Shown: positions 6,301-20,139 of the stretch, one piece after another
Position numbering within the stretch: the first letter of the stretch is position 1
Layout: every line of letters starts with the position of its first letter
Source of the DNA: Candidatus Sulfotelmatobacter sp.
GTDB lineage: Bacteria > Acidobacteriota > Terriglobia > Terriglobales > Acidobacteriaceae
Direction of reading: 5' to 3'
Assembly (NCBI GenBank): GCA_017883385.1
Contig: JADGNQ010000047.1
Location: 1-35,469 of the forward strand
Length of the DNA stretch: 35,469 nt
Program-made: the position numbers and the translations under genes
The notes under the pieces: model-generated
Databases searched by the model: none
Seen by the model: the letters and a program-made list of their open reading frames with translations, nothing else
Told to the model about the DNA's origin: nothing

Positions 6301-7024
6301 TGGCCGGAGCGGCGTCGTAGTAGGCATTAGCGCTTTCACGAATCTGGAAGAAGACGTCAGGATTCTGTGCCGTGCCGCGCAGCACCGGATGATCGGGCGA
6401 GAGCGCGCGCTGGCGGTGCTCGATGATGCGGTCCATGTTGAGCATCGCCCGCATGTCGTCTTCGTTGAGTAATTCGATCTTGTTGACTTCGTGGGAGGTG
6501 CGGAATCCGTCGAAGAAGTGCAGGAACGGAATGCGCGTCTCAAGCGTCGCGGCATGCGCGATCAGGGACAGGTCCATCGCCTCCTGCACTGAGTTCGAGC
6601 AGAGCATGGCCCATCCCGTGGCGCGGCAGAACATTACGTCGGAGTGGTCGCCAAAAATCGAGAGCGCATGCGTGGCCAGGGTGCGCGCCGTGACGTGAAA
6701 CGCACACGGGGTCAGTTCACCGGCGATCTTGTTCATGTTCGGGATCATGAGCAGCAATCCCTGCGACGCGGTAAACGTCGTGGAGAGCGATCCGGTCTGC
6801 AGGGCACCGTGCACGGCTCCGGCCGCGCCGCCTTCGCTCTGCATCTCGACTACGTGGGGTACGCTGCCCCAGGCATTGGGTACGTTCTCCGAGGACCACT
6901 GGTCCGCCCATTCGCCCATCGGCGACGAAGGAGTGATCGGGTAAATGGCGATCACTTCGCTCGCCCGGTAGGCGACATTCGCCACAGCTTCGTTGGCGTC
7001 CATGGTCTTGAATTTGCGCTTCAT
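3398..7024 (-). CDS. nifJ: Pyruvate:ferredoxin (flavodoxin) oxidoreductase
   Basis: 1208 residues, the usual length of the single-chain enzyme. It oxidises pyruvate with CoA to acetyl-CoA and CO2 and reduces ferredoxin or flavodoxin in the cytoplasm. The N-terminal pyruvate domain starts MDANEAVANVAYRASEVIAIYPITPSSPMGEW. The central gamma domain has TLAHLFEVK...GRGDELPVSAF. Two 4Fe-4S motifs follow, CIQCGKCAMVCP near residue 693 and CTGCGVCVDVCP near 753. The TPP domain starts at SGACSGCGETPYLKL and contains GGDGWAYDIGYGG and LDTEVYSNTGGQ. ATG at 7024 is preceded by a G-rich stretch. First gene of a three-gene operon; a perfect CRP-type palindrome lies ~110 bases upstream. The C-terminal ~40 residues are a loose Ala/Pro/Lys tail. 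Confidence 0.97.
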   Translation of the reverse strand: MKRKFKTMDANEAVANVAYRASEVIAIYPITPSSPMGEWADQWSSENVPNAWGSVPHVVEMQSEGGAAGAVHGALQTGSLSTTFTASQGLLLMIPNMNKIAGELTPCAFHVTARTLATHALSIFGDHSDVMFCRATGWAMLCSNSVQEAMDLSLIAHAATLETRIPFLHFFDGFRTSHEVNKIELLNEDDMRAMLNMDRIIEHRQRALSPDHPVLRGTAQNPDVFFQIRESANAYYDAAPAKVQATMDKFAEIVGRSYHLFDYVGAPDAERVIVMMGSGAEAAHETVEYLNAQGEKIGLLKVRLYRPFCVKSFMEALPASVRQISVLDRTKESGAIGEPLFLDVVNALHEGLKLGYGKLKIAPGVVGGRYGLSSKEFTPAMVKAVYDNLRQSQPKDHFTIGIHDDVGHTSLEYDAAFSTEHDSVVRALFYGLGADGTVGANKNSIKIIGENTDNYGQGYFVYDSKKSGAMTVSHLRFGPQPIHSSYLISKANFIACHQWIFLERYDMLSALVPGGVFLVNSPFGKDEVWDHLPREVQSQLIAKKAKLYAIDAYQVAQDAGMGSRTNTIMQVCFFAISKVLPGEEAIEAIRQSIRYTYGRKGEDVVQKNMQAVDKTLAHLFEVKIPDSVSSKTEIPAAFPGAPKFEHDVLGTIYAGRGDELPVSAFSCDGTFPTGTAKWEKRNLALEIPAWDTKICIQCGKCAMVCPHAVIRIKVYDSKELQGAPATFKSCDTRDKEWAGMKYTIQVAPEDCTGCGVCVDVCPVKNKSEVRLKAINMVPQPPLRAPESENWEFFLKLPELDRRKIKVGTIRQQQVQEPLFEFSGACSGCGETPYLKLVSQLFGDRAVVANATGCSSIYGGNLPTTPWSKNAAGRGPAWSNSLFEDNAEFGLGFRVSIDKQTEFSHELLRRLAGSVGEELVTAILNAKQKDEADIYEQRQRVDILKEKLAKLNSADARQLLSVVDMLVKKSVWIVGGDGWAYDIGYGGLDHVLASGRNVNILVLDTEVYSNTGGQASKSTPRGAVAKFAAGGKPGPKKDLGLMAMTYGNVYVASVAMGAKDEHTLKAFLEAEAYDGPSIIIAYSHCIAHGIDMTTAMTDQKVAVESGQWLLYRYNPERTAAGENPLALDSRAPTRKVQEYLLQQTRFKMLTKSKPEAAERLWKLAQQDVESRYRMYEYMASRKSEPVAAPKDSAEKTAPAVEKPVPTGAR

Positions 7025-7133
7025 GACATCCCCCGTTCAGAACTTTCGACAGGGCCACGGGAGTGGTCCACATCGATATATTCAGGATGCAGGAAGGGGG
7101 TTGTGGATGTCGGGACGCAGGTTCACAGAGGGG

Positions 7134-7149
7134 TGTGATTTGAATCACA
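7134..7149. promoter_or_regulatory. Crp/Fnr-type operator upstream of nifJ
   Basis: TGTGATTTGAATCACA, a perfect match to the CRP consensus TGTGA-N6-TCACA; the palindrome extends to 18 bases (GTGTGATT-TG-AATCACAC, 7133-7150). It sits ~110 bases before the nifJ ATG. On the minus strand a TATATC -10-like element (7075-7080) lies between site and gene, so an upstream-activator position is plausible. Confidence 0.75.
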
Positions 7150-7225
7150 CTTCGCGCAGGAGGAGATTGCTGAGGGCGCTGATTGGATCTTTCAACGGAC
7201 CTATAACTCTTTGTGAATCATGGGA

Positions 7226-8749
7226 CTAAGGGCCGCTCCCTCCGGAGTGGCAGTCGCTGCAGTTCACCTGCGTCAAGTCTCCCAAATCGACGGGATGCTG
7301 GAAACTGGGCACGGCAGTAGCAGCGAGGCTGGTCGTCCCCTCGGTCTCTGACATGAGGGTGTGGCACTGGGTGCAGTCCTTGCTTATGACCCTGCCGTCG
7401 GCGCTGACATGCTGGCCGTCGTGGCAGCGGAAGCAGCCGTTGTAATAGAAGTGCCCCAGGTTGTTGGAATGGGTCTGCCAGTTCAGCTTCATTTCGGGGA
7501 AGGTCGTGCGTTTGAAGATCTGCTGAACCTCGGTCACGGCGTTGCGAATCTCCAGTTGCTTGGTCTTCGCGACGTCCGGATACTTGCTCTCGTAGTAGCT
7601 TGGCACCCCGCTCGCGATGCCCTGCATGGCGGCATCGGTGGTGGCGTAAGTCGCGGTTAGCACCGTTACCGCTTCCTGCTTGATGAAGGGGAGGGTTACG
7701 TCCAAGCGGCGCGCCAGCAAGGACTGATCGACCGCCTGGTCTGGTGGAACGTAGATATGCGTCGGACGATTGTGGCAGTCCACGCAGTCCATGCGGTGCC
7801 GGGGGGCCTTGGCAATCTGATCCTTGGAGAGTGTCGAATCTTTGGCGTAGTAGTCGGTGACGCGGCCCTGCAGATCTTCCACGTGAATATAGGAAACGAT
7901 CTGGCGCTTCTCGTCGGCCGCCACGTACTCGATCTTGTTGCCGATGTTCATGTGCCAGTGGATGCCTTCGGGTGCGCCGGTGGCGGGATCTCCGCCGCCG
8001 GTTTTGATGATCATCCGGATCTGGCGCATCGTGTTCTTTTCATCGTTGGCGTAGTGCGTGAAGACTTTGAGCTGGCCTCCGTAGAATTTTTTCGGCCAGT
8101 GGCATTGCTCGCAAGTCTCTTGCGCCGGACGCAAATTGTGCACCGGCGTGGGAATGGGCCTCGGGAAAGTATTGAACAGGGCAGCAAAAACCTGCCGGCT
8201 GCCGGAGAGCTTGGACTTCACAAACCAGGTTGCGCCAGCGCCTACATGGCACTCCGCGCATGCCACCCGGGCATGCGGAGAAAGTTGATACGCGGTGTAT
8301 TCCGGACTCATCACCGTGTGGCACAACTGCCCGCAAAATGAAACCGACTCGGTGAATTCGTAGGCTTTGTAGCTGCCCGCGATACTTACCATGACGAACA
8401 CTACCAGGAACGTCACGAACGAGAATACCGCGCTACGCTGAGCCCGGTCGTTCAGGTCGATGCGGGGATAGAACTCCGTCGACACCACTTTCTTCCGCCG
8501 CTCCAGCAGCACACCGGCCAACATCAGCAGCAAGCCGAACGTCAGGAATGCGGGCGACACCATGTAGGCCAGGATGCCGATGTAAGGGCTGGCCTTGACG
8601 GCAATGGCGTCGATCAGGACAAAAAGGAAAATGTTGGCGAGACTGACGATCGCCAGCGCCACGCCGGCGAGGCTGACCGGGTTGCGCATGAGCATGCGCG
8701 AACGATGCCAGGGCTCGACCGGCGTCGTCGGGGACTTCTCATTGTCCAT
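7226..8749 (-). CDS. NapC/NirT-type membrane multihaem cytochrome c (seven haem motifs)
   Basis: 507 residues from ATG at 8749; the frame is open further upstream but that part lies inside the previous gene. Three membrane helices occupy about 25-47, 57-82 and 107-127. The remainder faces the periplasm and has seven haem motifs: CGQLCH (139-144, three residues between the cysteines), CAECH, CEQCH, CVDCH, CFRCH, CTQCH and CSDCH at the C-terminus. The sequence VMSPEYTAYQLSPHARVACAECH after haem 1 is typical of NapC/NirT/NrfH quinol dehydrogenases. Inferred role: quinol oxidation or electron relay between the membrane and a periplasmic partner. It overlaps the end of the b/c fusion gene by 11 bases, so it is translationally coupled to it. 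No catalytic reductase gene is in the window. Confidence 0.88.
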   Translation of the reverse strand: MDNEKSPTTPVEPWHRSRMLMRNPVSLAGVALAIVSLANIFLFVLIDAIAVKASPYIGILAYMVSPAFLTFGLLLMLAGVLLERRKKVVSTEFYPRIDLNDRAQRSAVFSFVTFLVVFVMVSIAGSYKAYEFTESVSFCGQLCHTVMSPEYTAYQLSPHARVACAECHVGAGATWFVKSKLSGSRQVFAALFNTFPRPIPTPVHNLRPAQETCEQCHWPKKFYGGQLKVFTHYANDEKNTMRQIRMIIKTGGGDPATGAPEGIHWHMNIGNKIEYVAADEKRQIVSYIHVEDLQGRVTDYYAKDSTLSKDQIAKAPRHRMDCVDCHNRPTHIYVPPDQAVDQSLLARRLDVTLPFIKQEAVTVLTATYATTDAAMQGIASGVPSYYESKYPDVAKTKQLEIRNAVTEVQQIFKRTTFPEMKLNWQTHSNNLGHFYYNGCFRCHDGQHVSADGRVISKDCTQCHTLMSETEGTTSLAATAVPSFQHPVDLGDLTQVNCSDCHSGGSGP

Positions 8750-10769
8750 GCTTGACCTCTGTGTCCTCGGGCTCTTTAGCCGACTCGGCTTCCGTTTCGG
8801 CTGTGGCATCGGAGCCAGGACGGGCCGTTCCTGCCATCGCAGCCGGGTCCAGGCCATGCTCCTCGCGGTAGTGGTGCAAGGTCATCTTTCCATCCCACCA
8901 CGCCCAGTTCATCGGGTAGACGTCCGGGTCGAAGAATACCTGGTAGAAGTGCCAGACGACGATCGCCAGGGTCGCCAGCACGGCTTCGTAGAAGTGAATG
9001 GCAGTCGCAACATCGAGCCACCAGCGCGGCATGTTATTGCCGACGAGAACCTTGGCCCACAGCATGACTCCAGTCACGGCCATCACGATCATGCCCCACA
9101 CCAGAGCCCAATACTCGGCCTTCTCGGCGTAGTTAAACCGCGCAAACTCGGGCTTCCGGGAAGTCAGGCCGAGATAATAACAGAGATTCTGCCATGCCCC
9201 CCGAACATCGTCGAGTGTGGGGAACAGATCGATCACCAGTTTGCGTCCCTCGCGGCTGAAGACAAGATCCAACATGTGATACAGGCTGACCCCAATCAGA
9301 AATACCGCGGCCACGCGATGGAGCAGATGCCGCATTCTTTCGCCCAGAGACAGGAATGACGCGAACCATGAGTCGGGGAACTTCAAGGCAAAGCCCGTCA
9401 GTACGAGCACCACAAAACTGATTAGCAAGGTGGCATGCTGCAGGCGGAAGCGCAGGGGCATGCGGATGACGAAATTGTGTTCGAGCTTGCGGCGGGCCAC
9501 AACCTTTGCGCGCCACAGAATGAAGTTGTGCGCGAGCATCCCGCCAATTACGACAAAGATCATCGTGAGATAGAACTTGCGAATCCAGCGAACTGCCTTG
9601 CTGCCTATGTCGGCCGAGAGCGGTGCATCCACGTGGACTCTTGACGCCGTGAAATTTTCCGTCACTCCCGGGTGGCACTGGCCGCACGTGCGGGCGAGAT
9701 TGGCATGGTTGATGGTCGACCGCGGATCGCTGGACGGAAGAATGTTATGCACTCCGTGGCAACTGGCGCAGTTAGCGACCACCTGCGAGCCTCCGCGCGC
9801 CGCGAGCCCGTGGTAGCTGGCCAAATATGTGGTCTCACGGCGGCCTTCGACGCCAAACTCCTGCGAGAGCCGCATGCCTTCATGGCAGCGCGCGCACGTC
9901 GCCTGCGCCAGATTCGCCGCTGCAACCGGAGAAGTTGGATCGAGATGCGATTTGATGGAGTGAATGCCGTGGCAGTCCGTGCATACCGGCGCCTGCCAGT
10001 TGCCCTTGGCTACGGCCTCACCGTGGATGCTCTGCTTATATTCCTTCGAAATCGCATCGTGGCACTTCCCGCAGGTCGAGGGCACATTGAACTTGAAGAT
10101 CGGCGACTTCGCATCCTTGGCGTCGAGAATTTCGTGCGTGCCGTGGCAGTCGGTGCAGACGGCGGCCTTCTCTGAGCCGGCAGCGACAGCGTGCCCGTGC
10201 ACGCTCTGCTCGTAAGAAGCGACCATCTGCGCGCTCTGCCCGCCGTCCTGCATCACAAATCTCTGACTATGGCAGGCGCCGCAGGTTGCGGGGATGTTGC
10301 CATGATGCACGCGCGACTTGGGGTCGCTGGCTGGCAACAGTACATGCGGACTCCCGTGACAATCGACGCATGTCGCTGCCTTGCTGTTGCCTCCCTGGAC
10401 TGCCTTGCCGTGGAAACTGCGATCATACGCAGCCTGCTCGTCCGCGTGGCAGGTCGCACAGGTGATTTTCAGGGGAGGAGTTTCGTGGCCGGCACTCTTG
10501 ACGTCAGTGTGGCAGTCCACGCAGGTGAACATGCTGCCATGGATCGAATCTTTGAAGCTCTGGGGATCGACATGCAAGCTGACGGGCTTGCCGTTGACGT
10601 CGTGGGTCAACGAGGCATCGCTATGGCAGGCGAGGCATTCGTCCGCGGTTGGTTTGGGAGGCTCTTTGCTGGCCGGGGCCTTGCCGGCGGCGTAGACGTT
10701 TCCAGCAGTTAAAAGCAGGGTGAGAGCGATTCCAAGCGCAAGAATACTCCGTATGGTTCGCGTGGACAT
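8739..10769 (-). CDS. Undecahaem cytochrome c fused to a cytochrome b (b561/FdnI-like) domain
   Basis: About 676 residues from ATG at 10769; an in-frame TTG five codons upstream is a poorer choice. The signal peptide is MSTRTIRSILALGIALTLLL..AGNVYAA. Eleven CXXCH motifs follow (CLACH, CVDCH, CATCH, CVDCH, CGACH, CTDCH, CGKCH, CTDCH, CARCH, CASCH, CGQCH) in the first ~385 residues, several inside the repeat unit S-x-HG-x-A followed ~15-20 residues later by C-x-x-CHG. The last ~290 residues are membrane-embedded with histidines placed as in formate dehydrogenase gamma/Ni-hydrogenase cytochrome b (RLQHATLL, RHLLHRVAAVFLIGVSLYHM, ATAIHFYEAVLA, VVWHFYQVFF). One polypeptide could thus move electrons between the membrane quinone pool and periplasmic haems. 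Second gene of the cytochrome operon. Confidence 0.9.
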   Translation of the reverse strand: MSTRTIRSILALGIALTLLLTAGNVYAAGKAPASKEPPKPTADECLACHSDASLTHDVNGKPVSLHVDPQSFKDSIHGSMFTCVDCHTDVKSAGHETPPLKITCATCHADEQAAYDRSFHGKAVQGGNSKAATCVDCHGSPHVLLPASDPKSRVHHGNIPATCGACHSQRFVMQDGGQSAQMVASYEQSVHGHAVAAGSEKAAVCTDCHGTHEILDAKDAKSPIFKFNVPSTCGKCHDAISKEYKQSIHGEAVAKGNWQAPVCTDCHGIHSIKSHLDPTSPVAAANLAQATCARCHEGMRLSQEFGVEGRRETTYLASYHGLAARGGSQVVANCASCHGVHNILPSSDPRSTINHANLARTCGQCHPGVTENFTASRVHVDAPLSADIGSKAVRWIRKFYLTMIFVVIGGMLAHNFILWRAKVVARRKLEHNFVIRMPLRFRLQHATLLISFVVLVLTGFALKFPDSWFASFLSLGERMRHLLHRVAAVFLIGVSLYHMLDLVFSREGRKLVIDLFPTLDDVRGAWQNLCYYLGLTSRKPEFARFNYAEKAEYWALVWGMIVMAVTGVMLWAKVLVGNNMPRWWLDVATAIHFYEAVLATLAIVVWHFYQVFFDPDVYPMNWAWWDGKMTLHHYREEHGLDPAAMAGTARPGSDATAETEAESAKEPEDTEVKHGQ

Positions 10770-10843
10770 GCTCTCACCCGCCAATCCTTACAGAATCGAA
10801 CGATTTCCGCGCGGCCGCATTGAGGCCGCCTTTCTGTGAACTG

Positions 10844-11176
10844 CTACTTCTTCGCCAAGCCGCGAATAAAGGCGACCAGGTCCGTGATCTCTGCGTCTTT
10901 CAGTTTGCCGTCATAGGCCGGCATCTTGCCTTTGCCTTTGCTGATGATTACGGTCAACTGCGCATCGGTTTGCTTCTGTACGTCGGCGGAGGTGAAGTCA
11001 TGGGCGCCCATTTTCACACCCATGGCTGAGCCTTTGCCGTCAGCGCCATGGCACATTGCGCATTTGGCCTTGAAGGTTGCGGCTGCGTCTTGTGCCACTG
11101 CCGAGGATGAGCAGACTGCGATCATTCCGCAAGCCAGCAGCGTTACCAGGCCCATTCGAAGAGAGAGACATTTCAT
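10844..11176 (-). CDS. Small periplasmic class I cytochrome c
   Basis: 110 residues, ATG at 11176 after a strong AAGGAGGAAG ribosome site. A signal peptide covers about residues 1-28 (LVTLLACGMIAVCSSSAVAQ). One haem site CAMCHGADGKG and the distal ligand motif GKMPAYDGKL give the layout of c6/c553-type monohaem cytochromes; the C-terminal helix is ITDLVAFIRGLAKK. It is a soluble electron shuttle, most likely serving the two multihaem membrane cytochromes encoded just downstream (74-base gap). First gene of this operon; two Crp/Fnr-type palindromes lie in the shared region between it and the divergent radical-SAM-like gene. Confidence 0.9.
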   Translation of the reverse strand: MKCLSLRMGLVTLLACGMIAVCSSSAVAQDAAATFKAKCAMCHGADGKGSAMGVKMGAHDFTSADVQKQTDAQLTVIISKGKGKMPAYDGKLKDAEITDLVAFIRGLAKK

Positions 11177-11362
11177 GTTGCTTCCTCCTTAAGGAAGATT
11201 GTTCGCAAGATATCACAGGGCAAGAACGGCCTGCCGTTTGACTTGCCGATCGCATGGAAATCAGAACGCAGTGCAAGTGCTCGTTTGCATCCTGAGAACT
11301 AGGTCGCAGCGGTAGGTTCGCATGCCGGTGAAGGTGGACCTATGGCAGAAGTCACTTTGGCC

Positions 11363-11378
11363 CGTGATGGAGATCACA
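11363..11378. promoter_or_regulatory. Crp/Fnr-type operator, cytochrome / radical-SAM divergent region
   Basis: CGTGATGGAGATCACA, form GTGAT-N4-ATCAC. It lies in the 292-base divergent intergenic region (11177-11468), 187 bases before the cytochrome c ATG and 91 bases before the radical-SAM-like ATG. The rest of that intergenic region holds only the second operator and the two ribosome sites. Confidence 0.65.
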
Positions 11379-11396
11379 GGCATTCCGGAAGCCAAT

Positions 11397-11412
11397 TGTG
11401 ACACGTATCACT
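11397..11412. promoter_or_regulatory. Second Crp/Fnr-type operator in the divergent region
   Basis: TGTGACACGTATCACT, centred 34 bases (about three helical turns) from the centre of the site at 11363-11378, so two dimers could bind on a similar face of the helix. It is 57 bases before the radical-SAM-like start codon. Confidence 0.6.
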
Positions 11413-11468
11413 ACCTTGCGTGCGATCCGGCATTGCGCCGGCGACTCTGGAAAAAATAGGATCACCCC

Positions 11469-12620
11469 ATGCCGACTCTGTCGAATCCACCCGTTCGCTC
11501 TTCTTCCGGCCCTCGCGCTCCGTCGGGATGGACTTCCGCACAGCCCGCGACAGGGCCGAGTCAGGTTTTGAATGCGGCGAGCTTTCAGCCGCGCCCGCTA
11601 CAGGTAACCTGGGAGATGACACAGGCCTGTGACTGGAAGGCCACGCATACCCGCGTCACGCGTGCACCGCGGGACAAGCGGGAATTCTCCACCGCCGAGG
11701 CCTTTCATCTGGTCGAGGAAGTCGCCGCCATGCACGTGCCTCTCCTCGTGCTGACGGGCGGCGATCCGCTGCTCCGCCCGGACTTGTTTCCGGTGATTGA
11801 ATTTGCTTCGCGTCGTTCGGTTCGTACGTCGCTCACGCTGCTTCCTACTCCTCTGCTGGATACGCAAGTGATTGCTGAACTGAAGGCGTGCGGATTGATG
11901 CGGGTTGCGTTCTGGCTGCACGGTTCTACAGCGGCGTTAGCCGACGCGTACTGGGGTGTCCCTGGATCCCATCGGCGCACCCTCGAGGTCGTCGGGACCT
12001 GCCACGAAGTCGGCTTGCCGGTGCAGATCAACACGATCATGGCGCGGCGGAACCTGAACGACGTGGATCCCATGATCGAACTTCTCACCCGTCTCGACGT
12101 GGTTTTGTGGAATGTGATCTTCTTCGTCCCCGGGGGGCGGGAGCAGGCCGGCGATTTGCTTACTGCGGAAGAGCACGAAGAGATATTTGCCAAGCTCTAT
12201 GCAGCATCGAAGCGGGTTCACTTCCAGATCAAGACCACCGAGGGCCAGCACTATCAACGCTATCTTCTGCAGCAACGGGCCCGGGAATCGCGCGGACGCA
12301 TGACCGAAGCGGACGTCATCACCTGCGCGCCCAAGGGTGTCAACGACGGCAAGGGTTTCGTGTTCATCAATCACCATGGCGACATGTACCCCAGCCGCTT
12401 CCTGCCTCTGTCCGCCGGCAACATTACTACCCAGCCGCTCTCTGAGGTGTACTGCGATTCGCCATTGTTTGTGTCTCTGCGCGACAGTTCCAAGTTGAAG
12501 GGCAAGTGTGGACGCTGCCTGGTCCGCAATGTCTGTGGAGGCTCGCGCGCTCGCGCCTATGCCATGACCGGCGACCTGTTCGCCCAGGAACCCTGCTGCG
12601 CCTACGAACCAGAGGCCTGA
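11469..12620 (+). CDS. Radical SAM/SPASM-like protein lacking two cluster cysteines
   Basis: 383 residues. The fold reads as a radical-SAM protein with a SPASM-type C-terminus, close to the group with the opening W-E-x-T-x-ACDLxCxHC. The first strand is VTWEMTQACDWKATHTR: Cys54 is kept, but the second and third cysteines of CX3CX2C are Ala58 and Thr61. The SAM-binding GGDPLL (97-102) and later strands are intact, and so are the C-terminal cysteines (C286, C347, C350, C356, C376, C377). The loss is thus local, not decay, and no frameshift restores the motif. It may not form the SAM-cleaving 4Fe-4S cluster. Relatives act in haem/haem d1 or peptide modification; a role near cytochromes is inference. 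AGGATCACCCC precedes ATG at 11469. The first ~40 residues are a Ser/Pro-rich extension. Confidence 0.8.
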   Translation: MPTLSNPPVRSSSGPRAPSGWTSAQPATGPSQVLNAASFQPRPLQVTWEMTQACDWKATHTRVTRAPRDKREFSTAEAFHLVEEVAAMHVPLLVLTGGDPLLRPDLFPVIEFASRRSVRTSLTLLPTPLLDTQVIAELKACGLMRVAFWLHGSTAALADAYWGVPGSHRRTLEVVGTCHEVGLPVQINTIMARRNLNDVDPMIELLTRLDVVLWNVIFFVPGGREQAGDLLTAEEHEEIFAKLYAASKRVHFQIKTTEGQHYQRYLLQQRARESRGRMTEADVITCAPKGVNDGKGFVFINHHGDMYPSRFLPLSAGNITTQPLSEVYCDSPLFVSLRDSSKLKGKCGRCLVRNVCGGSRARAYAMTGDLFAQEPCCAYEPEA

Positions 12621-12658
12621 GTTCTGCCGGTCCGGTTTTCTTAGCTGCTTCCGAGAAG

Positions 12659-12674
12659 TGTGACTGGTATCACG
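12659..12674. promoter_or_regulatory. Crp/Fnr-type operator 1 of 4 before the five-cysteine gene
   Basis: TGTGACTGGTATCACG, 39 bases after the radical-SAM-like stop. Together with the next three it makes the 372-base stretch 12621-12992 the densest operator region in the window; nothing coding was seen in that stretch. Confidence 0.6.
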
Positions 12675-12797
12675 TTCAAGGGTGATTCAACATCTGAGCC
12701 GAGTCATGACTGAACCCAGAGGCCACAGACTCCCGAACTCCAAGGAATCAGGAGTGATTTGCCGGCGCCACCTTGGATTCCAGACTCCTGCGCCCCA

Positions 12798-12813
12798 TGT
12801 GATTTGAATCACG
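12798..12813. promoter_or_regulatory. Crp/Fnr-type operator 2 of 4
   Basis: TGTGATTTGAATCACG; identical to the nifJ operator except for the last base. Its centre is 22 bases (two helical turns) from operator 3. Confidence 0.7.
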
Positions 12814-12819
12814 CACCTC

Positions 12820-12835
12820 CGTGATTGCGATCACG
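12820..12835. promoter_or_regulatory. Crp/Fnr-type operator 3 of 4
   Basis: CGTGATTGCGATCACG, both half-sites matching perfectly (CGTGAT/ATCACG). It is separated from operator 2 by six bases. Confidence 0.7.
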
Positions 12836-12905
12836 CGATCCAATCTGGGATTCCTCTGTAACCGCTGCAAATCGCCAAGGGGCACCGGAAGGTGCTCCAT
12901 TCCGG

Positions 12906-12921
12906 TGTGACCACGATCACG
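12906..12921. promoter_or_regulatory. Crp/Fnr-type operator 4 of 4
   Basis: TGTGACCACGATCACG, 71 bases before the ATG at 12993; the closest of the four and the one best placed for contact with RNA polymerase. No strong -10 box could be identified. Confidence 0.65.
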
Positions 12922-12992
12922 ACCTCCCGTGACCAAATACACGGAGCTTCCACGCTAGCTCTGGCATCCTGAACCCTAATCGAGGTTGCCCT

Positions 12993-13379
12993 ATGGCGCA
13001 AGATGGTCGTGACATTCTGGAAGTCCTCCAGTTCGAGCTGAGTTTCCTGGAAGACGGCGGCTACGGACGTTCGCCGCGCGCACCTTGGCGTGCTCCCGCC
13101 GTTTTTGAGGATTCGCCCATCTGTCCGAATTTCTGCGATCCCGCCCGGCCCCATCCCTGCGAGAGCTGCCTGCTGGAGCAGTTTGTTCCCAAGGACAGGC
13201 AGGCCGAAAGCGTGCCGTGCCGTTTCATCGAGCTCACGCAACAGGGGCAGACCGTGGACGATCTCTATCGCACCGGAAGTCAGGTCGAAATCGAAGAGGC
13301 CCTGGGCCGCTGGCTGCGCGCCCAGATCGAGAAGATCAAGCGGGAGCGAGGTCTTCCGCAAGAAGCAGGAGCGGCATAG
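12993..13379 (+). CDS. Uncharacterised five-cysteine protein
   Basis: 128 residues, ATG at 12993 after GAGGTTGCCCT. I do not recognise the family. It has no signal peptide or membrane segment, so it is probably cytoplasmic. The first 20 residues (DILEVLQFELSFLEDG) and the last 40 (EIEEALGRWLRAQIEKIKRE) look helical. Between them is a cysteine-rich core: C44-x3-C48-x7-C56-x2-C59 and C76, within SPICPNFCD and PCESCLLEQFVP. This could bind Zn or an Fe-S cluster, or be a redox thiol module. Four Crp/Fnr-type operators precede it, so it is probably the most tightly controlled gene of the group. OsmC and a reductase-like gene follow on the same strand, probably co-transcribed. Confidence 0.8.
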   Translation: MAQDGRDILEVLQFELSFLEDGGYGRSPRAPWRAPAVFEDSPICPNFCDPARPHPCESCLLEQFVPKDRQAESVPCRFIELTQQGQTVDDLYRTGSQVEIEEALGRWLRAQIEKIKRERGLPQEAGAA

Positions 13380-13482
13380 AGGTCTGCTCCCCAACCGCAA
13401 AGTTCGGCTGACTGTGCCACGCGAGCTTCAGTTTCTGCTGCAACGACGTGCCAAAGGTTTCTCCCAAGGAGACGTGATAGTC

Positions 13483-13935
13483 ATGAGTGAAGAGCACACA
13501 TATCGAGTAGCAGCCTGGTGGACTTCCGGCCGCACCGGTCTGGCCAAATCAGATTCCGCTCCGAATGCTATCCACTTCACGGCCCCGGCAGAATTTGGCG
13601 GGCTGGAAGGCAGATGGACGCCGGAGGAACTTCTGCTCGCCGCCGTTGCCGGTTGCTACACCACGACGTTGCGCGCGATTGCCGGCACGGCGCAATTCAA
13701 CTTTACCGATCTGCAGGTGGAAGCCAGCGGCACGGTGCGCAAGGCTGAATCCGGTTATGCGTTCGCCCAGATCGTCGTTCGTCCCAACCTCAAGATTGCG
13801 TCGGTTGAGGAACGGGAACGCGCGCTCGATCTGCTCAAACGGGCTGAGAAACTGTGCCTGGTTTCGCGCGCCCTGGGAACTACGCTGCGGTTCGAGCCTC
13901 AGCTGGAAATCGTCAAGCCTGCGGCGATCGTTTAA
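13483..13935 (+). CDS. OsmC family protein
   Basis: 150 residues from ATG at 13483 with AAGGAGA ~12 bases upstream; a GTG three codons earlier sits too close to that site. The longer open frame from 13090 overlaps the previous gene and has no OsmC homology there. The family layout is present: FGGLEGRWTPEELLLAAVAGCYTT with the peroxidatic-type Cys (58 by my count), then the beta sheet DLQVEASGTV, and a second Cys in AEKLCLVSRAL. OsmC/Ohr proteins reduce organic hydroperoxides with these two cysteines. Here it may protect against peroxide on re-exposure to oxygen. It is 104 bases after the five-cysteine gene and 18 bases before the next gene. Confidence 0.88.
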   Translation: MSEEHTYRVAAWWTSGRTGLAKSDSAPNAIHFTAPAEFGGLEGRWTPEELLLAAVAGCYTTTLRAIAGTAQFNFTDLQVEASGTVRKAESGYAFAQIVVRPNLKIASVEERERALDLLKRAEKLCLVSRALGTTLRFEPQLEIVKPAAIV

Positions 13936-13953
13936 GAACGGACCCAGGCTGAA

Positions 13954-14910
13954 ATGAGAGTCCTCATTGTCGGCAGAGGTGTGGTAGGAACAATTTATGG
14001 CTGGGCCTTGTCCACGGCGGGCATTGATGTTACCCATGTCGTGCGAAAAGAGGGCCTCCCTACCACCCACACCTTGGACCTGCTGGACCTGCGTGCCGGG
14101 CACCCTAAGCACGCCAAGGTGACTTATGTTCCCAAGACAGTCAGGCAGATCAAGGTGTCAGACGCTTTTGACCTCGTGATCGTCGCTACCAAGCACTACC
14201 AGGCGGCACAGGTCGTCCGCCAATACCTGCCCGATGCGCCTCACGCCACTTTTCTGTTATTCACCGCTAATTGGGACGGAACGGAGGAGATTGACCGCCT
14301 GCTGCTGCGATTCTCGATCCTTTGGGGTTACGCTGCTGCCAGTGGTGGTGCCGATGCTCAAGGCATCCTCGTCGCAACTATGAACCCAACCGTGCGCTTC
14401 GGAATGTTGGAAGGTTCTGATCCGGAGAAGTTCAAGGCCGTAACGGAGTTATTCCAAAGGGCTGGTTTCACTCTGGACATTAAACCCAACATCATCGAAT
14501 GGCTCTGGGTGCACCATGCCATCAATGCCGGAGGAATCGGGGTCGCTCTCTGGGCAGGAGGCATTGCCGAAGCGACCCAGAGTCTTGAGACTTCAAGATT
14601 GGGGGTATGGGCCATCCGTGAAGCGTTGGATGTGGTACAGGCCCGGGGTGTTGACCTGGAGCGTTACCCCGACACTAGAAGTGTCTTGAATACGCCTGCT
14701 TGGATTGCCGGCCTCGCCGGTATTTGTTTCATTCGGTTCACTGAAAAAGGTCGACGCCTTCTTAGAGGTAGTCACTTCGCCAGCAGCACGGACGAGATGA
14801 AACGCTATTACTTCGATGTGCTCAACACCGGTGAGAGCATGGGGCTGCCTATGCCACACTTGTCCGCGCTGCGTGAAAAGATCGAACGTTATTCTCGGCG
14901 GGCTGCTTGA
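13954..14910 (+). CDS. Ketopantoate reductase-like (ApbA/PanE family) protein
   Basis: 318 residues. The N-terminal Rossmann fold has MRVLIVGRGVVGTIYGWAL and DLVIVATKHYQ (73-83), the pattern of NADPH-binding ApbA/PanE proteins, and the helical C-terminal domain aligns in general. In E. coli PanE the catalytic Lys176 and Asn180 lie eight and four residues before Asn184. The matching stretch here, EWLWVHHAINAGG, has Trp183 and His187 in these places and keeps Asn191. It is thus probably not the pantothenate enzyme but a related oxidoreductase of unknown substrate. It follows OsmC by 18 bases, and its ATG overlaps no other gene. It converges with the synthetase gene, leaving only 25 bases between them. 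Confidence 0.85.
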   Translation: MRVLIVGRGVVGTIYGWALSTAGIDVTHVVRKEGLPTTHTLDLLDLRAGHPKHAKVTYVPKTVRQIKVSDAFDLVIVATKHYQAAQVVRQYLPDAPHATFLLFTANWDGTEEIDRLLLRFSILWGYAAASGGADAQGILVATMNPTVRFGMLEGSDPEKFKAVTELFQRAGFTLDIKPNIIEWLWVHHAINAGGIGVALWAGGIAEATQSLETSRLGVWAIREALDVVQARGVDLERYPDTRSVLNTPAWIAGLAGICFIRFTEKGRRLLRGSHFASSTDEMKRYYFDVLNTGESMGLPMPHLSALREKIERYSRRAA

Positions 14911-14935
14911 CGCGCTCCGCACCCAGGGATTTGGG

Positions 14936-17701
14936 CTAGAGTTCCAGCAGGGCTGAGATCGACGACGGGTCATCCATCGAGCGCAGCCGGAATCCCACCT
15001 TCTTGAAGATCGCTTGTGTTGCCAGATTGTCCCGCAAGATCTCGCCGGAGAGTCTCTGAAACTTTTCTTTGCGGGCTACTCGAGCCACGCCCGCGAGGAG
15101 TTCGGTCCCCAGCCCGCGCCCCTGCCATCGATCGGAAACCAGCACGGCCGCCTCGGCCTCCGCGCGATTGATAGCGCTGAACCGGCCCACGCCCAAGACT
15201 TCGTGTTGCCCCGTCTCGGGATTCTTGCGATCTGCCACCAGCGCAAATCCGCGATCGTAGCTGCCAAAACAGATCCGCACCAGTCTTTCGTGCTCCACTC
15301 TTGTGCTCAGACTCAGCGAGCAGAAGTACCGCAGGTACACGCTGCGCTCGGAGAGCGTCGTGTGGAACTGGACCATGAGTGGCTCGTCTTCGGGGCGGAT
15401 CGGCCGGATCGTCACCGGAGTCCCATCCTTTAATTGCCACTCCCAAGCGTACTGCGCCGGGTATGGGCGGAGGGACGGACGGGGCAATTGCTCTGCCTGC
15501 ATGGTGGAATCATGCACCAGTACGCGCGCATCGAGCGCCAGCAGGTGCTCGGGTGTCGCCAGCAGCGGATTGATGTCGATCTCCTTAATCCATGGCTGCT
15601 CCATCACTAGCTGGCTGAAACGCACCAGCAGTCCTTCCAGCGCGGTCAGGTTCACCGGCTTGCGCCCGCGCACGCCCCGCAGCGCGGAGAAGATTCGCGT
15701 CTGTTCCATCAAGCGCTGCGCCAGCGTTGTGTTCAGGGGAGGCAGGCCCAGGGCACGATCCCGATAGACTTCCACCATCACTCCGCCGGACCCAAACAGG
15801 ATCACTGGTCCGAACTGCGCATCCACGCTGCTGCCCAGAATCAGCTCGTATCCATCGCGCCGCACCATCGGCTGTACAGTGACTCCGCCAAAGTGCTCCG
15901 CTCCTGCTTTCTCCGCCACCGATGCCTGAATCGCACGGTATGCGCCCCGCACTTGTTCTGCATCCTGCAGCCTGAGGCGAACTCCATCCACATCCGTTTT
16001 GTGCGCGATGGTGTTGGACAACAGCTTCAGCACCACCGGATATCCAATCTCTGATGCGTGAGCAACGGCCTGTTCTTCGTCCTCCGCCACGCGCGTTTCC
16101 ACGACGGGAATTCCGTAGTACGCCAGAAGCTGTTTCGCTTCAAATTCATTGAGCATCGTCCGTCCGGCGCCGCGTACCCGTTGTACAAAATCGTCGACCT
16201 TGCTGCGTGCGTCGGCCGCCGGTTCCGCTCCTTCCACCAGGGCCGGAGTTTCATAAAGCCCGCGCAGGTTGTAGGTGTAGCGCCACATGTAAGTGAAGGC
16301 GCGCGCCGCGGTGTCCGGATAAGAGAACGTCGGAATACCCGACGTGTTTAGAATCGCAGTGCCCTCTGCGACTCCGTCACCGCCCATCCAACTCGCCAGC
16401 ACCGGCTTGCCCGAACTCCGCGCATACGGCTTCATGCGCTCCGCCACTTGCGTGGGATCTGCGAGTCCCTGAGGCGCGATGATGGCCAGCAATCCATCGC
16501 TCGCCGGATCTTTCGAGGCGATATCGACCGCTCTGACGAAGCGTTCGGCATCCGCATCGGCCAGCACATCCACGGGATTTGCGTGACTCCAGTGCGCGGA
16601 CAAGAAGCTGTCGAGCTCCTGCAAAGACTCCGTCGACAGCACGGTAAGCTCTCCGCCTGTGGCCATGAGCGAATCGGTCGCCAACACGCCTGGACCGCCG
16701 GCGTTGGTCACGATGGTCAGACGCGGGCCGCGTGGCCGCGGCTGCTTGCTCAGGACCTCGGCCATATAGAAAAGGTCCGCGATATTTTGCACTCGCAGCA
16801 CGCCGCAGCGCCGGAACGCCGCCTCCAGAACATCATCGCTTCCGGTCAAGGCTCCCGTGTGCGATGCGGCCGCGCGTGAAGCCGCGTCTGAGCGTCCGGC
16901 TTTGATGACGATAATGGGCTTGCTCAGCGCAATCTCGCGGGCGGCAGAAAGAAACGAACGCGCGTCTCCCACCGACTCCATGTAGAGCAGAATGCTCTTG
17001 GTGTGCGGATCATCCCCGAAGTAATAGATCAGATCGCCCCAGCCCACATCGAGCATGGACCCAGTCGAAACGATCGCACTGAATCCAACCTGTTCCTTCT
17101 GGCTCCAGTCGAGGATCGCCGTCTGCAGCGCGCCGCTCTGGCTCAGAAATGCGACGCTGCCCTTCTGCGGCATCGACTTCGCAAACGTCGCATTGAGCCC
17201 AATCGTTGGATTCATGAACCCCATACAGTTGGGTCCAATCAAACGCAGGCCTCCGCGCGCAGACCCGCGGAGTAGGTGCTTCTGAATCTCTTCTTCCAGT
17301 ACCGCGCCGTCGTGTCCCCGCTCGCGAAACCCCGCCGAGATCACGACCGCCGATCTCACTCCGGCATCGACACACTCTCCGATGATTTGAGGCACGGTCT
17401 GTGCCGGGGTCACTACCAGCGCCAGATCGACTCCTCCCGCGATCTCTCCGATGTGATTGTGTGTCTTGACGCCGAGGACTTCGCCGCGGCTGGGAGTCAC
17501 GGCATAGACTTTGAGGGGAAACTTGCTTTCCAGCAGATTCGAAAGCACGCTCCGGCCAACGGTTCCCGCCCGGTCTGTGGCCCCAATCACCGCGACCGAG
17601 CGAGGAAGAAAGAGCGACTCCAGTGCAGCGCGTGGCGGCGCCGCCGCCGTCTGTGGTGCGTCCGCCAGCGGTTTTACCGAGGGGTTCGATACCTCGCTCA
17701 C
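14936..17701 (-). CDS. ADP-forming acyl-CoA synthetase fused to GNAT acetyltransferase
   Basis: 921 residues, GTG start at 17701 with GGGAGGATTTCT ahead. Domain order: CoA-binding (about 28-165, [19 protein letters not shown]), CoA-ligase (to ~480, [13 protein letters not shown] and [13 protein letters not shown]), ATP-grasp (about 510-740, [16 protein letters not shown]), then GNAT (about 755-921, [12 protein letters not shown] at 858-869). Similar architecture occurs in Pat/YfiQ protein acetyltransferases. In those the synthetase part has lost its active His, while here the phospho-accepting His281 of SHTGAL is present, as in acetate-forming ACD enzymes. It may therefore both make ATP from acetyl-CoA and acetylate proteins. 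It shares a 209-base divergent region, with one Crp/Fnr-type operator, with the regulator gene. Confidence 0.9.
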
Positions 17702-17848
17702 AGAAATCCTCCCGCTAACGCGGCTGTTTCCATCTTTATCACAATCTTAGGGAGACCGGGAAATGCGGGCTTCGCACACACAAATTCCATGCTCGCACAG
17801 TTTTCTCTGCGCGTCTGTGATCCTGATATGCCGTCGATCACCATGGTC

Positions 17849-17864
17849 CGTGACGGTGATCACA
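17849..17864. promoter_or_regulatory. Crp/Fnr-type operator in the regulator/synthetase divergent region
   Basis: CGTGACGGTGATCACA. It lies 47 bases before the regulator ATG and 148 bases before the synthetase GTG. A good -10 box for the regulator, TACAAT, is at 17881-17886. The operator then covers the -35 position, which suggests autoregulation, either as a class II-like activator or a repressor. Confidence 0.7.
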
Positions 17865-17880
17865 ATGGAAAATCCGGTGC

Positions 17881-17886
17881 TACAAT
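17881..17886 (+). promoter_or_regulatory. Candidate -10 box of the Crp/Fnr regulator gene
   Basis: TACAAT, 25 bases before the ATG at 17911. No recognisable -35 hexamer precedes it; that position is taken by the operator, as expected of a regulated promoter. Single-motif evidence only. Confidence 0.4.
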
Positions 17887-17910
17887 TGATCGAAAGGTAG
17901 GTGCTGCGTC

Positions 17911-18627
17911 ATGCGCGCCCCTTATGGACTAAATATTCTTGATAACTGCCTCTCGTGTCCGGTGAGGGAAGAACATCTTTTCTGCAATCTTTCTGTACAC
18001 GCCGGACAACGCCTCAACGACATCAAATCCACCGCCGTCTATCCCAAGGGAGCCATGCTCTTCATTGAAGGGCAGCAACCGCGTGGCGTGTTTGTGCTCT
18101 GTGCCGGGAAGGCAAAACTTTCTACCTCTTCCCGCGAAGGTAAAACCATCATCACGAAAATCTCCGAGTCCGGAGATATCCTTGGCCTGAATGCGGTCGT
18201 TTCCAATCGCCCGTACGAGGTCACAGCCGAGATGATGGAGCCTGGCCAGGCTAACTTCATTCCCCGCGATTCGTTGCTGCAATTCTTGAAGGACCACGGA
18301 GAAGTAGCCTTGCGCGTCGCCGAACAGTTGAGCCGCAACTACTACACCGCATACGAGGAAATCCGCACCCTGGGTCTCAGTACCTCGCCATCGGAGAAGT
18401 TTGCCAAGCTTCTGCTGTCCTGGTCGACCAAGACGCAGCAGACCGACGGTTCCTCGCAGGTCAAGCTCACGCTAACCCACGAGGAGATTGCGGAAATCAT
18501 CGGGACCACCCGCGAAACGGTCAGCCGCCTGTTTTCCGAGTTCAAGAAGAAACAGCTGCTGCAGCTCAAAGGGTCTACCCTCGTGATCCGCAACCGGTTG
18601 GCACTGGAAAAGATCGTTCAGTCCTGA
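17911..18627 (+). CDS. Crp/Fnr family transcription regulator with N-terminal cysteine cluster
   Basis: 238 residues, ATG at 17911, with GAAAGGTAGGTG upstream. The N-terminus has C13-x2-C16-x8-C25 (NCLSCPVREEHLFC) and a further C64, four cysteines in an arrangement like that of FNR (three clustered plus one distant), so an oxygen- or redox-sensing Fe-S cluster is plausible. The cyclic-nucleotide-type beta barrel spans about 45-130 (PKGAMLFIEGQQPRGVFVL). The dimerisation helix follows, then a winged helix-turn-helix at about 185-225. The recognition helix TTRETVSRLFSEF has the Arg of CRP (RETVGR) and the Ser-Arg of FNR (VETISR). That fits the GTGAY-N4-ATCAC operators seen around it, including one in its own promoter. 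It is convergent with the uspA-like gene. Confidence 0.93.
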   Translation: MRAPYGLNILDNCLSCPVREEHLFCNLSVHAGQRLNDIKSTAVYPKGAMLFIEGQQPRGVFVLCAGKAKLSTSSREGKTIITKISESGDILGLNAVVSNRPYEVTAEMMEPGQANFIPRDSLLQFLKDHGEVALRVAEQLSRNYYTAYEEIRTLGLSTSPSEKFAKLLLSWSTKTQQTDGSSQVKLTLTHEEIAEIIGTTRETVSRLFSEFKKKQLLQLKGSTLVIRNRLALEKIVQS

Positions 18628-18649
18628 AATGCACTACGGGGGGCATGTG

Positions 18650-18692
18650 GGGACAGCCGCCTCGGCTGTCCCGCCGAACGCAGTGAGGCGGC
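18650..18692. repeat. REP-like double-hairpin element between convergent genes
   Basis: GGGACAGCCG-CCT-CGGCTGTCCC (18650-18672) is a perfect 10-bp stem. Overlapping it, GCCGCCTC (18656-18663) can pair instead with GAGGCGGC (18685-18692). It lies between the regulator stop and the UspA stop and may act as a bidirectional terminator. A similar two-hairpin element is at 35146-35184. Confidence 0.6.
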
Positions 18693-18745
18693 TACACCTG
18701 CCATGTCACCCACGCAGCCGCTCTCGGCGGCGCCCGCGCCGCTTT

Positions 18746-19705
18746 TTATCCTGCCACCGTCAATACCGGACAGGGCGCGTTTCGCACCACCTCGTGTACT
18801 GCGGCCCACGGAACATGCGCAGCCGCTCGCGCTAAGCCCGTCCGGTTCGCGCCCATCACGATCAAATCGACTTTGAACTTGCCGACAGCGGTCAGGATTC
18901 CCTCTGTCAGAAAGTCGGTTCCCACGACATACTCTGGCTCCTGGTCCAAACCAGTTTCCGCAGGCAGACATTCTCCCAATTGCCGCAGTGCCCGCTTGCG
19001 CGACGCTCCTTCCCATTCCAGCAACTCGTCGGCAGCAGCCACTGCAGGCGCGTATGCAGACAGGCTGCCAGTGGTCGCAGGCATGGGCGCAATCATGTGC
19101 AACAGGATCAGCTTCGCCTGCTGAGCCTTGGCCAGCGCCAACGCCAGTGGCAGGGCTTTTGCGGATGCCTTGCCAAAATCGGTGGCGAACAGAATCCGGT
19201 GAAACCCGGGCCCGTGCGCAATGGTCGCGATGTCTGCCTTGGGACCAATCGTCATCACTGGGCATGTCGCCACGCGCAGCAGTTCTTCCGCGACGGAGCC
19301 CAGCGCCAGCTTCTGCAGGCCTCCGCGTCCTCTTGTGCCGATGACCAGAAGGTCGACCGCTCCCTCTGCGATCACGGCCGTAACCGCTTCTGCGACCGGC
19401 CCGTGTTTTACCACGACCGACTCGACGTTCGGCACCGGTCCGAGCTCGTCCATCAGGGCCCGGATCCGCCGTTCTGCGTCGATGCGCGCCAGATCGAGTT
19501 CGGGTGGATTCTCCAGAGCCGCATACTTCCAGTCGGTTTGCAAAATGTGAATCACCGACAAACGCGCGTGGTTTTCCACTGCCAGCACCAGTGCGTCGCA
19601 CAGCGCTCGCCGCGAAGCTTCCGAGAAATCCGTAGCTACGAGGATGTGACGGAAAACCGTACTGGTCTTCGTTGTTATTGGGGTCTTCAATTCTGCGATT
19701 GTCAT
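18746..19705 (-). CDS. Tandem universal stress protein (two UspA domains)
   Basis: 319 residues from ATG at 19705, chosen because AAGGAGG lies 7 bases upstream; a GTG 13 codons earlier would run into the previous gene. Domain 1 (about 18-165) starts FRHILVATDFSEASRRAL and has the ATP-binding motif GTRGRGGLQKLALGS. Domain 2 (about 175-319) starts FHRILFATDFGKASAKAL, but its nucleotide motif is degenerate (GANRTGLARAAAHVPW), so only domain 1 probably binds ATP. It is a cytoplasmic stress protein whose relatives are often induced by oxygen limitation. It is 25 bases downstream of a Cys4 protein gene and probably co-transcribed with it. Confidence 0.92.
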   Translation of the reverse strand: MTIAELKTPITTKTSTVFRHILVATDFSEASRRALCDALVLAVENHARLSVIHILQTDWKYAALENPPELDLARIDAERRIRALMDELGPVPNVESVVVKHGPVAEAVTAVIAEGAVDLLVIGTRGRGGLQKLALGSVAEELLRVATCPVMTIGPKADIATIAHGPGFHRILFATDFGKASAKALPLALALAKAQQAKLILLHMIAPMPATTGSLSAYAPAVAAADELLEWEGASRKRALRQLGECLPAETGLDQEPEYVVGTDFLTEGILTAVGKFKVDLIVMGANRTGLARAAAHVPWAAVHEVVRNAPCPVLTVAG

Positions 19706-19730
19706 AGGTGCCTCCTTTACAACACCCACG

Positions 19731-20045
19731 TCATCTATCTTCACGGCCGACAGATGCGGCCCGTCCCCGCAGTCTTCTTCTTCTCGGCTCGTTCTGCGGT
19801 GCAGACGGCGGCGGGAGTGTCACTGCTTTGACGGGCAGGCGCACCAGTTGGGCCTGTTTTCCACCCCAGATCAGTGTCATTTCTTTCGAGCATTTGGCGC
19901 AAAGCCAGAATCGCTCATTCAGTTCCGGAATCAGCATTTGCCTCGCGATCCGGACTTCTGGGGTGGGAGCGAGGTAGAAGACCTTCCCCTCGTGGAGATA
20001 TCGAAAGATCTCGGAACACTCGGGATTGGCGCACTTCGACAGCAT
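19731..20045 (-). CDS. Small Cys4 (zinc-ribbon-like) protein
   Basis: 104 residues, ATG at 20045 with AGGAGCGCGCC ahead. Two cysteine pairs, C5-x4-C10 (SKCANPECSEIF) and C49-x2-C52 (WLCAKCSKEMTL), resemble a zinc ribbon; between them is HEGKVFYLAPTPE. The C-terminal 30 residues are basic and Pro/Arg-rich (PRRRRLRGRAA) and could touch nucleic acid. The function is unknown; similar small proteins seem common in Acidobacteria (my recollection, not checked). It is the leading gene of the uspA transcript, with a weak Crp/Fnr-type palindrome ~80 bases upstream. Confidence 0.75.
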   Translation of the reverse strand: MLSKCANPECSEIFRYLHEGKVFYLAPTPEVRIARQMLIPELNERFWLCAKCSKEMTLIWGGKQAQLVRLPVKAVTLPPPSAPQNEPRRRRLRGRAASVGREDR

Positions 20046-20123
20046 GGCGCGCTCCTGCCAGCCGTACGGTCAAAATGCTATGCCGGCTCGGCGGGGAATG
20101 AGGTGACGCCAGATACCAAACCG

Positions 20124-20139
20124 GGTGACCTTCATCACT
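20124..20139. promoter_or_regulatory. Weak Crp/Fnr-type palindrome upstream of the Cys4/UspA genes
   Basis: GGTGACCTTCATCACT: both GTGA and TCAC cores are present with the right 6-base spacer, and the A before TCAC is kept, but the outer bases do not match. It lies in the 160-base divergent region between 20045 and 20206. Confidence 0.4.

Follow-up and report, generated by a model that had tools for sequence, protein, structure and literature searches.

The described regulators closest to the one considered here are FNR, cAMP-dependent CRP with its relatives GlxR and MtbCRP, and HcpR, all of the Crp/Fnr superfamily. FNR has the motif TTGAT-N4-ATCAA; CRP has the consensus TGTGA-N6-TCACA and, to our knowledge, no N-terminal cysteine motif, and the cassette residues E, R, T and S of GlxR are its cAMP contacts. 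In the excerpts drawn on here, FNR is given the cysteines C20, C23, C29 and C122 (PMC6659574), and Arg180 of the recognition helix is tied to one half-site position (G or T) in the HcpR study (PMC545781). Our subject is a Crp/Fnr regulator and its predicted operators in a stretch of 35,469 nucleotides (hereafter, the window), which is one whole contig of a 6.80-Mb genome of Candidatus Sulfotelmatobacter, an uncultivated acidobacterium of peat soil, in 446 contigs. The genus is known from peat and soil metagenomes; peat metagenomes are the source from which it was proposed, as stated in the excerpt of PMC6018796. Named Candidatus Sulfotelmatobacter and Acidobacteriaceae SbA1 genomes carry regulators 95% identical to that of the window. 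We consider it probable that this regulator is a global activator of energy metabolism which acts through single and 22-bp paired operators and represses its own gene. The evidence, observed directly in sequence, lies in the motif, its distribution over the genome, its conservation, the pairing, the -10 spacing and the conserved cysteines.

An earlier note on this DNA had listed eight intergenic palindromes around the regulator gene and a weak ninth one. All eight match YGTGAYNNNNATCAC where it had placed them (12 oriented matches against 0.05 from shuffles) and fit YGTGAYN4ATCAC, and its half-site counts are accurate as well (ATCAC on the right in 8/8, GTGAT on the left in four and GTGAC in four). 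They do lie between called genes, as does the ninth site, which proved stronger than supposed: GTGACCTTCATCAC at 20125 fits the two-sided form GTGAYN4RTCAC exactly. What did not survive is the description of the regulon as local. The whole genome holds 119 GTGAYN4RTCAC sites versus 8 for the reversed control, made up of 52 TT sites (GTGATN4ATCAC; 0 in the reversed control), 45 CT sites (GTGAC/ATCAC; 4 in the control) and a remainder (119-52-45) of about 22 CC sites (GTGACN4GTCAC). Only 9 of the 97 TT and CT sites are in the window and 88 are elsewhere; the 97 are spread over 62 contigs, and every 35-kb stretch other than the window has at most three. A regulon confined to the window is rejected by these genome-wide counts, and a chance origin of the sites by the shuffle and reversed-motif controls.

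Sequence was fetched round all 97 TT and CT sites (620 kb) and genes were called with our own codon-usage script. Four of the CC sites turned up in these loci; changing the spacer to 3 or 5 left 3 and 0 sites, respectively. The FNR-type motif TTGATN4ATCAA occurs 0 times in the same 620 kb, loci picked by the GTGAY motif, the remaining genome not having been searched. The possibility raised by the earlier note that the motif is equally common inside genes does not hold: 11/97 sites are wholly genic in sequence that is 84% coding (binomial p 6e-56; 11/88 outside the window), or 13/97 when the site centre is used as the criterion. Of the 86 non-genic sites, 81 lie at most 450 bp from a gene start, and one more does when a site at the edge of one fetched stretch is read in a second stretch.

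Many sites are accompanied by a second palindrome exactly 22 bp away, a feature absent from the earlier list. Partners were scored by the letters matched out of 8, with thresholds of at least 5/8 or at least 6/8. At the stricter threshold, 32/86 intergenic sites of the genome have a partner at ±22, compared with other offsets from 14 to 60, which average 0.43 and never exceed 3; at the looser one the figures are 48/86 versus 3.6. Only 1/11 genic sites has a 22-bp partner. In related loci, mostly promoters of the regulator, of pyruvate:ferredoxin oxidoreductase (PFOR) and of citrate synthase, 208/280 sites are paired versus 2.9, and in the window 8/9 sites have a partner at 5/8 or better and 6/9 at 6/8 or better; 12799 and 12821 are both listed sites, and the six other partners are weaker. 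Across 61 genomes we count 44 perfect doubles with a gap of 1-30 bp, many being orthologous copies so that independent cases are fewer: 22 at offset 22, 11 at 34, 5 at 31, 2 at 35 and one each at 18, 24, 26 and 39. Those at 34-35 include copies of the window's divergent cytochrome/radical-SAM promoter. One locus (G023:C44:2494-2551) has three perfect operators in series with successive spacings of 22 bp. That CRP-type sites in general have a 22-bp partner is not supported by 400 kb of E. coli K-12, a small sample, where 0/22 exact and 0/26 near-consensus sites are paired (0/22 versus 32/86, Fisher p 1.5e-4).

When the sites of the genome are oriented to their gene, TANNNT lies 29-30 bp from the site centre in 13/66 cases versus 0.67 per position, and a smaller peak (6 cases) stands at 52; related loci show peaks at 29 and 50-51 bp. 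The second peak accompanies a palindrome exactly 22 bp further on. Single sites have the -10-like box at +29/30, and pairs have NANNNT at +50 to +52 in 23/47 cases in this genome (5.9 expected) and in 109/152 non-redundant related pairs (19.9 expected), for which a weighted -10 score makes offset 51 the clear best (z 5.5). With the -10-like box 50-52 bp away from the strong site, the partner would sit near -41.5 and the strong site near -63.5. The geometry of a class II activator (site at -41.5, -10 box starting 29-30 bp from its centre) is found statistically, relative to predicted starts. In the window, six of the eight paired sites have NANNNT at +51/52, facing PFOR, cytochrome c, the radical-SAM-like gene, a four-cysteine protein, an ADP-forming acyl-CoA synthetase-like protein (ACD) and a small open reading frame (ORF) before a universal stress protein (USP).

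The promoter of the regulator gene itself has a different layout. We compared 52 distinct regulator promoters with a site 30-90 bp before the start, leaving out those with a farther or no site. In 50/52 the partner (at least 5/8) is on the far side of the operator from the regulator, and of the 46 promoters with the extended -10 element TGnTACAAT, 42 have it 18-24 bp from the operator centre. In the window the operator covers about -30 to -43 of this promoter; it overlaps the regulator's extended -10 promoter, and autorepression is therefore predicted. The earlier note had the operator at 17850 control both ACD and the regulator. Its geometry towards ACD is indeed the activating one, while the regulator promoter is overlapped in a repressing position. 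A second group of close paralogues (L060, L061, L063, L064, L066, L068-L072, L074-L076 and L116) has its exact site 225-243 bp upstream, as opposed to 49-80 bp.

Conservation across genomes extends these observations. An exact site occurs at most 400 bp upstream in 68/72 regulator loci (72 of 74 were used; L113 and L119 were excluded as partial or remote), 108-137 bp upstream in 28/28 PFOR copies with an N terminus among 37 genus genomes (2/30 loci dropped as fragments), and upstream of citrate synthase in 21/30 loci, or 25 with one mismatch allowed. The comparison gene, RsmH, has an exact site in 0/22, one of which had no upstream sequence (8/30 dropped as fragments). In the 37 genomes the density of TT sites follows the identity of the best regulator homologue (Spearman 0.79, kinship ignored), and the nine genomes without a PFOR match have a median of 1.59 TT/Mb versus 5.48 in the 28 with it (p 7e-6, kinship likewise ignored and some genomes incomplete). 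The gene order DHOD-PFOR-ACD-USP-OsmC-regulator-Cys protein is partly repeated in many of 93 related loci. In G005, G008, G013, G014, G027, G029, G030 and others, PFOR adjoins a paralogous regulator of ~53% identity, and exact sites precede PFOR there.

The regulator protein has the cNMP-binding-like beta-roll and Crp-type helix-turn-helix of the superfamily according to Pfam, its AlphaFold2 model (pLDDT 80.5, pTM 0.59) and fold search. Foldseek matched the model to GlxR (TMq 0.75), MtbCRP and holo-FNR (5e44, 0.71), and GlxR/MtbCRP are the closest PDB entries by sequence and fold. The cAMP cassette of CRP, with its Glu, Arg and Ser/Thr, is not found: GlxR's E, R, T and S align with L93, Y102, E103 and V104, of which Y102 and E103 are invariant and the other two nearly so in 41 aligned relatives. 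It has exactly four cysteines, 13, 16, 25 and 64 (CX2CX8C plus Cys64), which do not fall on the FNR ligand positions. They are invariant in the same 41 relatives and kept in 76-77/77 regulator rows (one row misread) and in 29-30/30 rows comprising the query and its best matches across the phylum, where matches at E 1e-35 occur in 38/247 sampled genomes. We suggest that these cysteines may hold an Fe-S cluster that senses oxygen or redox state. The recognition helix has the RETV-x-R sequence that goes with TGTGA half-sites, by which the regulator is predicted to bind the operators. Of 15 Crp/Fnr matches in the genome 14 were readable (one gave no alignment), and three of these have RETV[ST]R together with the Cys motif, namely the window regulator, C399 (90% identical) and C379 (49%); the other 11 do not.

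As predicted targets we took the 109 proteins encoded by the first genes downstream of sites, to be compared with 408 other genes of the same stretches, a set that shares its loci with the targets and contains some later genes from target operons. Sites precede genes for PFOR, complex I, multihaem cytochromes, haem synthesis and regulators. Above the family cut-off are a hydrogenase small subunit, succinyl-CoA:acetate CoA-transferase, citrate synthase, NADP-glutamate dehydrogenase, a sulfide/dihydroorotate dehydrogenase-like FAD subunit, NuoI, glutamyl-tRNA reductase and one DmsE-type decahaem cytochrome. Likenesses short of it are a malic enzyme with a phosphate acetyltransferase part, a 2-oxoglutarate:ferredoxin oxidoreductase delta-type ferredoxin, HoxE/NuoE, two more decahaem-like proteins, an HmcB-like Fe-S protein and a CcsB-like protein. 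Acetate-CoA ligase is matched by two targets. CxxCH is found in 15/109 targets versus 11/408 other genes (p 3e-5), at least three CxxCH in 5 versus 4 (p 0.02) and CxxCxxCxxxC in 6 versus 5 (p 0.01), all p values being uncorrected. These counts are clearer than pooled Pfam tallies, which are weakly informative because TPR models dominate both sets; Fer4 models (6/109 targets) and Cytochrome_C7 (5/109) do not appear in the top 25 families of the other set. Dozens of energy-metabolism promoters throughout the genome appear to be under the predicted control of a regulator resembling FNR, and a low-oxygen theme is suggested. The earlier note's view of a Crp/Fnr regulon which includes its own regulator, the targets it named and an energy-metabolism theme is retained in all but its local extent.

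We propose that the window regulator, which has its 90% paralogue elsewhere in the genome, would act as a global activator of energy metabolism, its dimer reading TGTGAY-N4-RTCACA through the CRP-type recognition helix (RETVSR). At many promoters two adjacent dimers would bind exactly two helical turns (22 bp) apart, the strong site having its centre near -63.5 and the other, weaker in most cases, lying near -41.5 beside the -10 box, from where the second dimer would contact RNA polymerase (class II); single sites would lie near -41.5. Cooperativity and activation are predicted here, and autorepression would follow from the overlap of the regulator promoter with the activating operator of the divergent gene, such that the regulator is repressed while the divergent gene is on. 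A wider claim, in which we place about even confidence, is that the regulator stands for a Crp/Fnr subfamily whose four-cysteine sensor (CX2CX8C plus a beta-roll Cys) is new and whose neighbouring dimers act on 22-bp-phased operators, the distal strong site anchoring the weak -35-region site for cooperative, switch-like control of the entire fermentative and respiratory programme in Sulfotelmatobacter while the regulator's own gene is silenced through the same operator. Several observations weigh against global activation by this regulator. A partner of at least 6/8 is missing at 54/86 sites of the genome, and at single-target sites it is on the gene side in only 9/13. The weighted -10 score of the genome's own pairs reaches z 3.0 at offset 51 but is equalled at offsets 26 and 17, inside the partner letters. 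In the window, the first T is missing from four of the six candidate -10 boxes, and neither side of the perfect double 12799/12821 has a -10 box at the expected offset. A link to energy metabolism is not evident for many targets, the recognition-helix core is shared by C399 and C379 in the same genome, and the fourth cysteine is off the FNR position, the Fe-S cluster being hypothetical.

That the sites are served mainly by C399, or are common to all three Cys-type regulators, is a substantial possibility, if short of even: C399 and C379 have the same helix core, C399 has its own site upstream, and other genomes have PFOR beside the ~53% paralogue. Site density argues the other way, as six genomes whose best homologue is below 49.5% have a median of 1.44 TT/Mb versus 6.88 in the 15 with orthologues of at least 84%. 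An effector other than O2 on an Fe-S cluster (NO, thiol redox, a metal read by the four cysteines, or none) is a somewhat doubtful but real option. It is favoured by the spacing of the cysteines, which departs from that of FNR as given in the excerpt of PMC6659574; on the other side, both the four conserved cysteines and the enrichment of haem- and Fe-S-type motifs in the targets are consistent with a redox or O2 sensor. A mainly repressing role of the regulator at these genes is unlikely: the geometry of its own promoter is a repressing one, but at the other promoters the -10-like box is 29-30 bp from the nearest site, as for a class II activator. A cAMP-dependent CRP we regard as very improbable, given that the cassette positions are replaced and the replacements kept in relatives, and that an N-terminal Cys motif is not known from CRP, even though the DNA motif agrees with the CRP consensus and GlxR and MtbCRP come out best in both sequence and fold.

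We next consider the less-characterised genes of the window (Table 1). The product of the radical-SAM-like gene is a homologue with its own operator, as the earlier note had it, although two of the three cluster cysteines are lost. It scores 354 bits against the TIGR04053 cut-off of 395, with the CX3CX2C motif lost, and 121.5 bits against the cut-off of 525 for TIGR04347, a pseudo-SAM/SPASM family (NCBIfam) that is likewise a radical-SAM/SPASM relative and whose name implies a missing SAM motif; it is closer to TIGR04053. The second and third cysteines of CX3CX2C are lost in 8/8 clade rows with an N terminus, the four SPASM cysteines are kept in 13/13 rows, and the gene is under constraint (w 0.10-0.26 in 42/45 pairs, three undefined, dS often saturated). 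Intact homologues are L081, L112 and, in the same genome and under the same motif, C114. The candidate -10 box is so close to the first ATG that the message is likely to be leaderless or the true start to lie later.

The four-cysteine protein matches no Pfam family. Its Cys 44, 56, 59 and 76 are present in 32-33/33 relatives and a fifth (48) in 13; its model is confidently helical (pLDDT 82.2, pTM 0.78), a Foldseek search of the PDB gave no match (best E 4), and its profile has only one weak sequence match (E 0.023). The gene is preceded by four operators and recurs beside the regulator in related genomes. The small ORF before USP, absent from the earlier note, drew attention solely because the pairing and -10 rule placed a start there. 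It has no Pfam match and is conserved: tblastn rows from related loci (25, with 14 distinct sequences) are 35-74% identical to it.

Table 1. Operators, candidate promoter elements and genes of the window (partner scores are letters matched out of 8)
Feature	Position	Strand	Remarks
YwiC-like gene	1305-2363		behind PFOR
DHOD-like gene	2363-3379		behind PFOR
PFOR	3398-7024	-	
Candidate -10 of PFOR	7084-7089	-	CATCCT, offset 52
Partner of 7135	7113-7126		half-site GTGA, 5/8; 22-bp spacing
PFOR strong operator	7135-7148		motif match; site in 28/28 orthologues with N terminus
Cytochrome operon	7226-11176	-	class I cytochrome c; multihaem protein with b561 domain; NapC/NirT-like multihaem protein
Candidate -10 of cytochrome c	11314-11319	-	GAACCT, offset 51
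Partner of 11364	11342-11355		6/8
Cytochrome-operon strong operator	11364-11377		motif match
Strong operator of radical-SAM-like gene	11398-11411		
Partner of 11398	11420-11433		5/8
Candidate -10 of radical-SAM-like gene	11457-11462		TAGGAT
Radical-SAM/SPASM homologue	11469-12620	+	TIGR04053-like, without CX3CX2C
Operator without partner site	12660-12673		motif match
Two perfect operators	12799-12834		12799 and 12821, 22 bp apart
Strong operator of four-Cys protein	12907-12920		
Partner of 12907	12929-12942		7/8
Candidate -10 of four-Cys protein	12965-12970		CATCCT
Uncharacterised Cys protein	12993-13379	+	Cys 44, 56, 59, 76 conserved
OsmC-like gene	13483-13935	+	
ApbA/PanE-like gene	13954-14910	+	
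ACD	14936-17701	-	with GNAT domain
Candidate -10 of ACD	17799-17804	-	AAAACT, offset 52
Partner of 17850	17828-17841		ACD side, 6/8
Strong operator between ACD and regulator	17850-17863		predicted activation of ACD (-), repression of regulator (+)
Extended -10 of regulator gene	17878-17886	+	TGCTACAAT; TGnTACAAT in 46/52 orthologous promoters
Crp/Fnr regulator	17911-18627	+	238 aa; Pfam cNMP_binding, HTH_Crp_2 above cut-off; helix TRETVSR
USP	18746-19744	-	two Usp stretches
Unannotated small ORF	19731-20045	-	104 aa; CX4C and CX2C; first gene before USP
Candidate -10 of small ORF	20075-20080	-	TAGCAT
Partner of 20125	20103-20116		6/8
Ninth operator	20125-20138		

Taken together, the motif, the rule of 22-bp pairing and the distance to the -10 box predict membership of the programme and operator direction from sequence alone, and the pairing rule has already led to one unannotated conserved gene. 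Paired operators would be a clear case in which to test whether Crp/Fnr dimers cooperate, and if the regulator with its four cysteines senses O2 or redox state, its ligand arrangement differs from that of FNR. Searches of the open-access PMC literature, at the level of titles and abstract openings, showed no account of this regulon or of Crp/Fnr sites paired at 22 bp, and what was consulted of that literature holds none of oxic/anoxic switching of energy metabolism in Sulfotelmatobacter. The exact 22-bp pairing differs from the textbook layout and is new here.

Compared with FNR of E. coli and A. fischeri, the window regulator shares the fold, a CX2C near the N terminus with two more cysteines, an energy-metabolism regulon and class II geometry; it differs in the placement of the cysteines (13, 16, 25, 64 versus 20, 23, 29, 122), in predicted sites with TGTGA and not TTGAT, and in operators often paired at 22 bp. 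With CRP, GlxR and MtbCRP it has in common the DNA motif, the RETV-type helix and the closest PDB fold and sequence, and is set apart by the replaced cAMP-contact residues and the N-terminal Cys motif, as its regulon is from the CRP-type sites of E. coli K-12 by the 22-bp partners. The HcpR regulon of delta-proteobacteria, as described in the excerpt of PMC545781, is similar: comparative genomics revealed it as the regulon of a Crp/Fnr protein controlling anaerobic energy genes, with a helix residue, Arg180, linked to the motif; it belongs to another lineage, its targets are hcp, frdX, sat and apsAB, and the excerpt makes no mention of paired operators.

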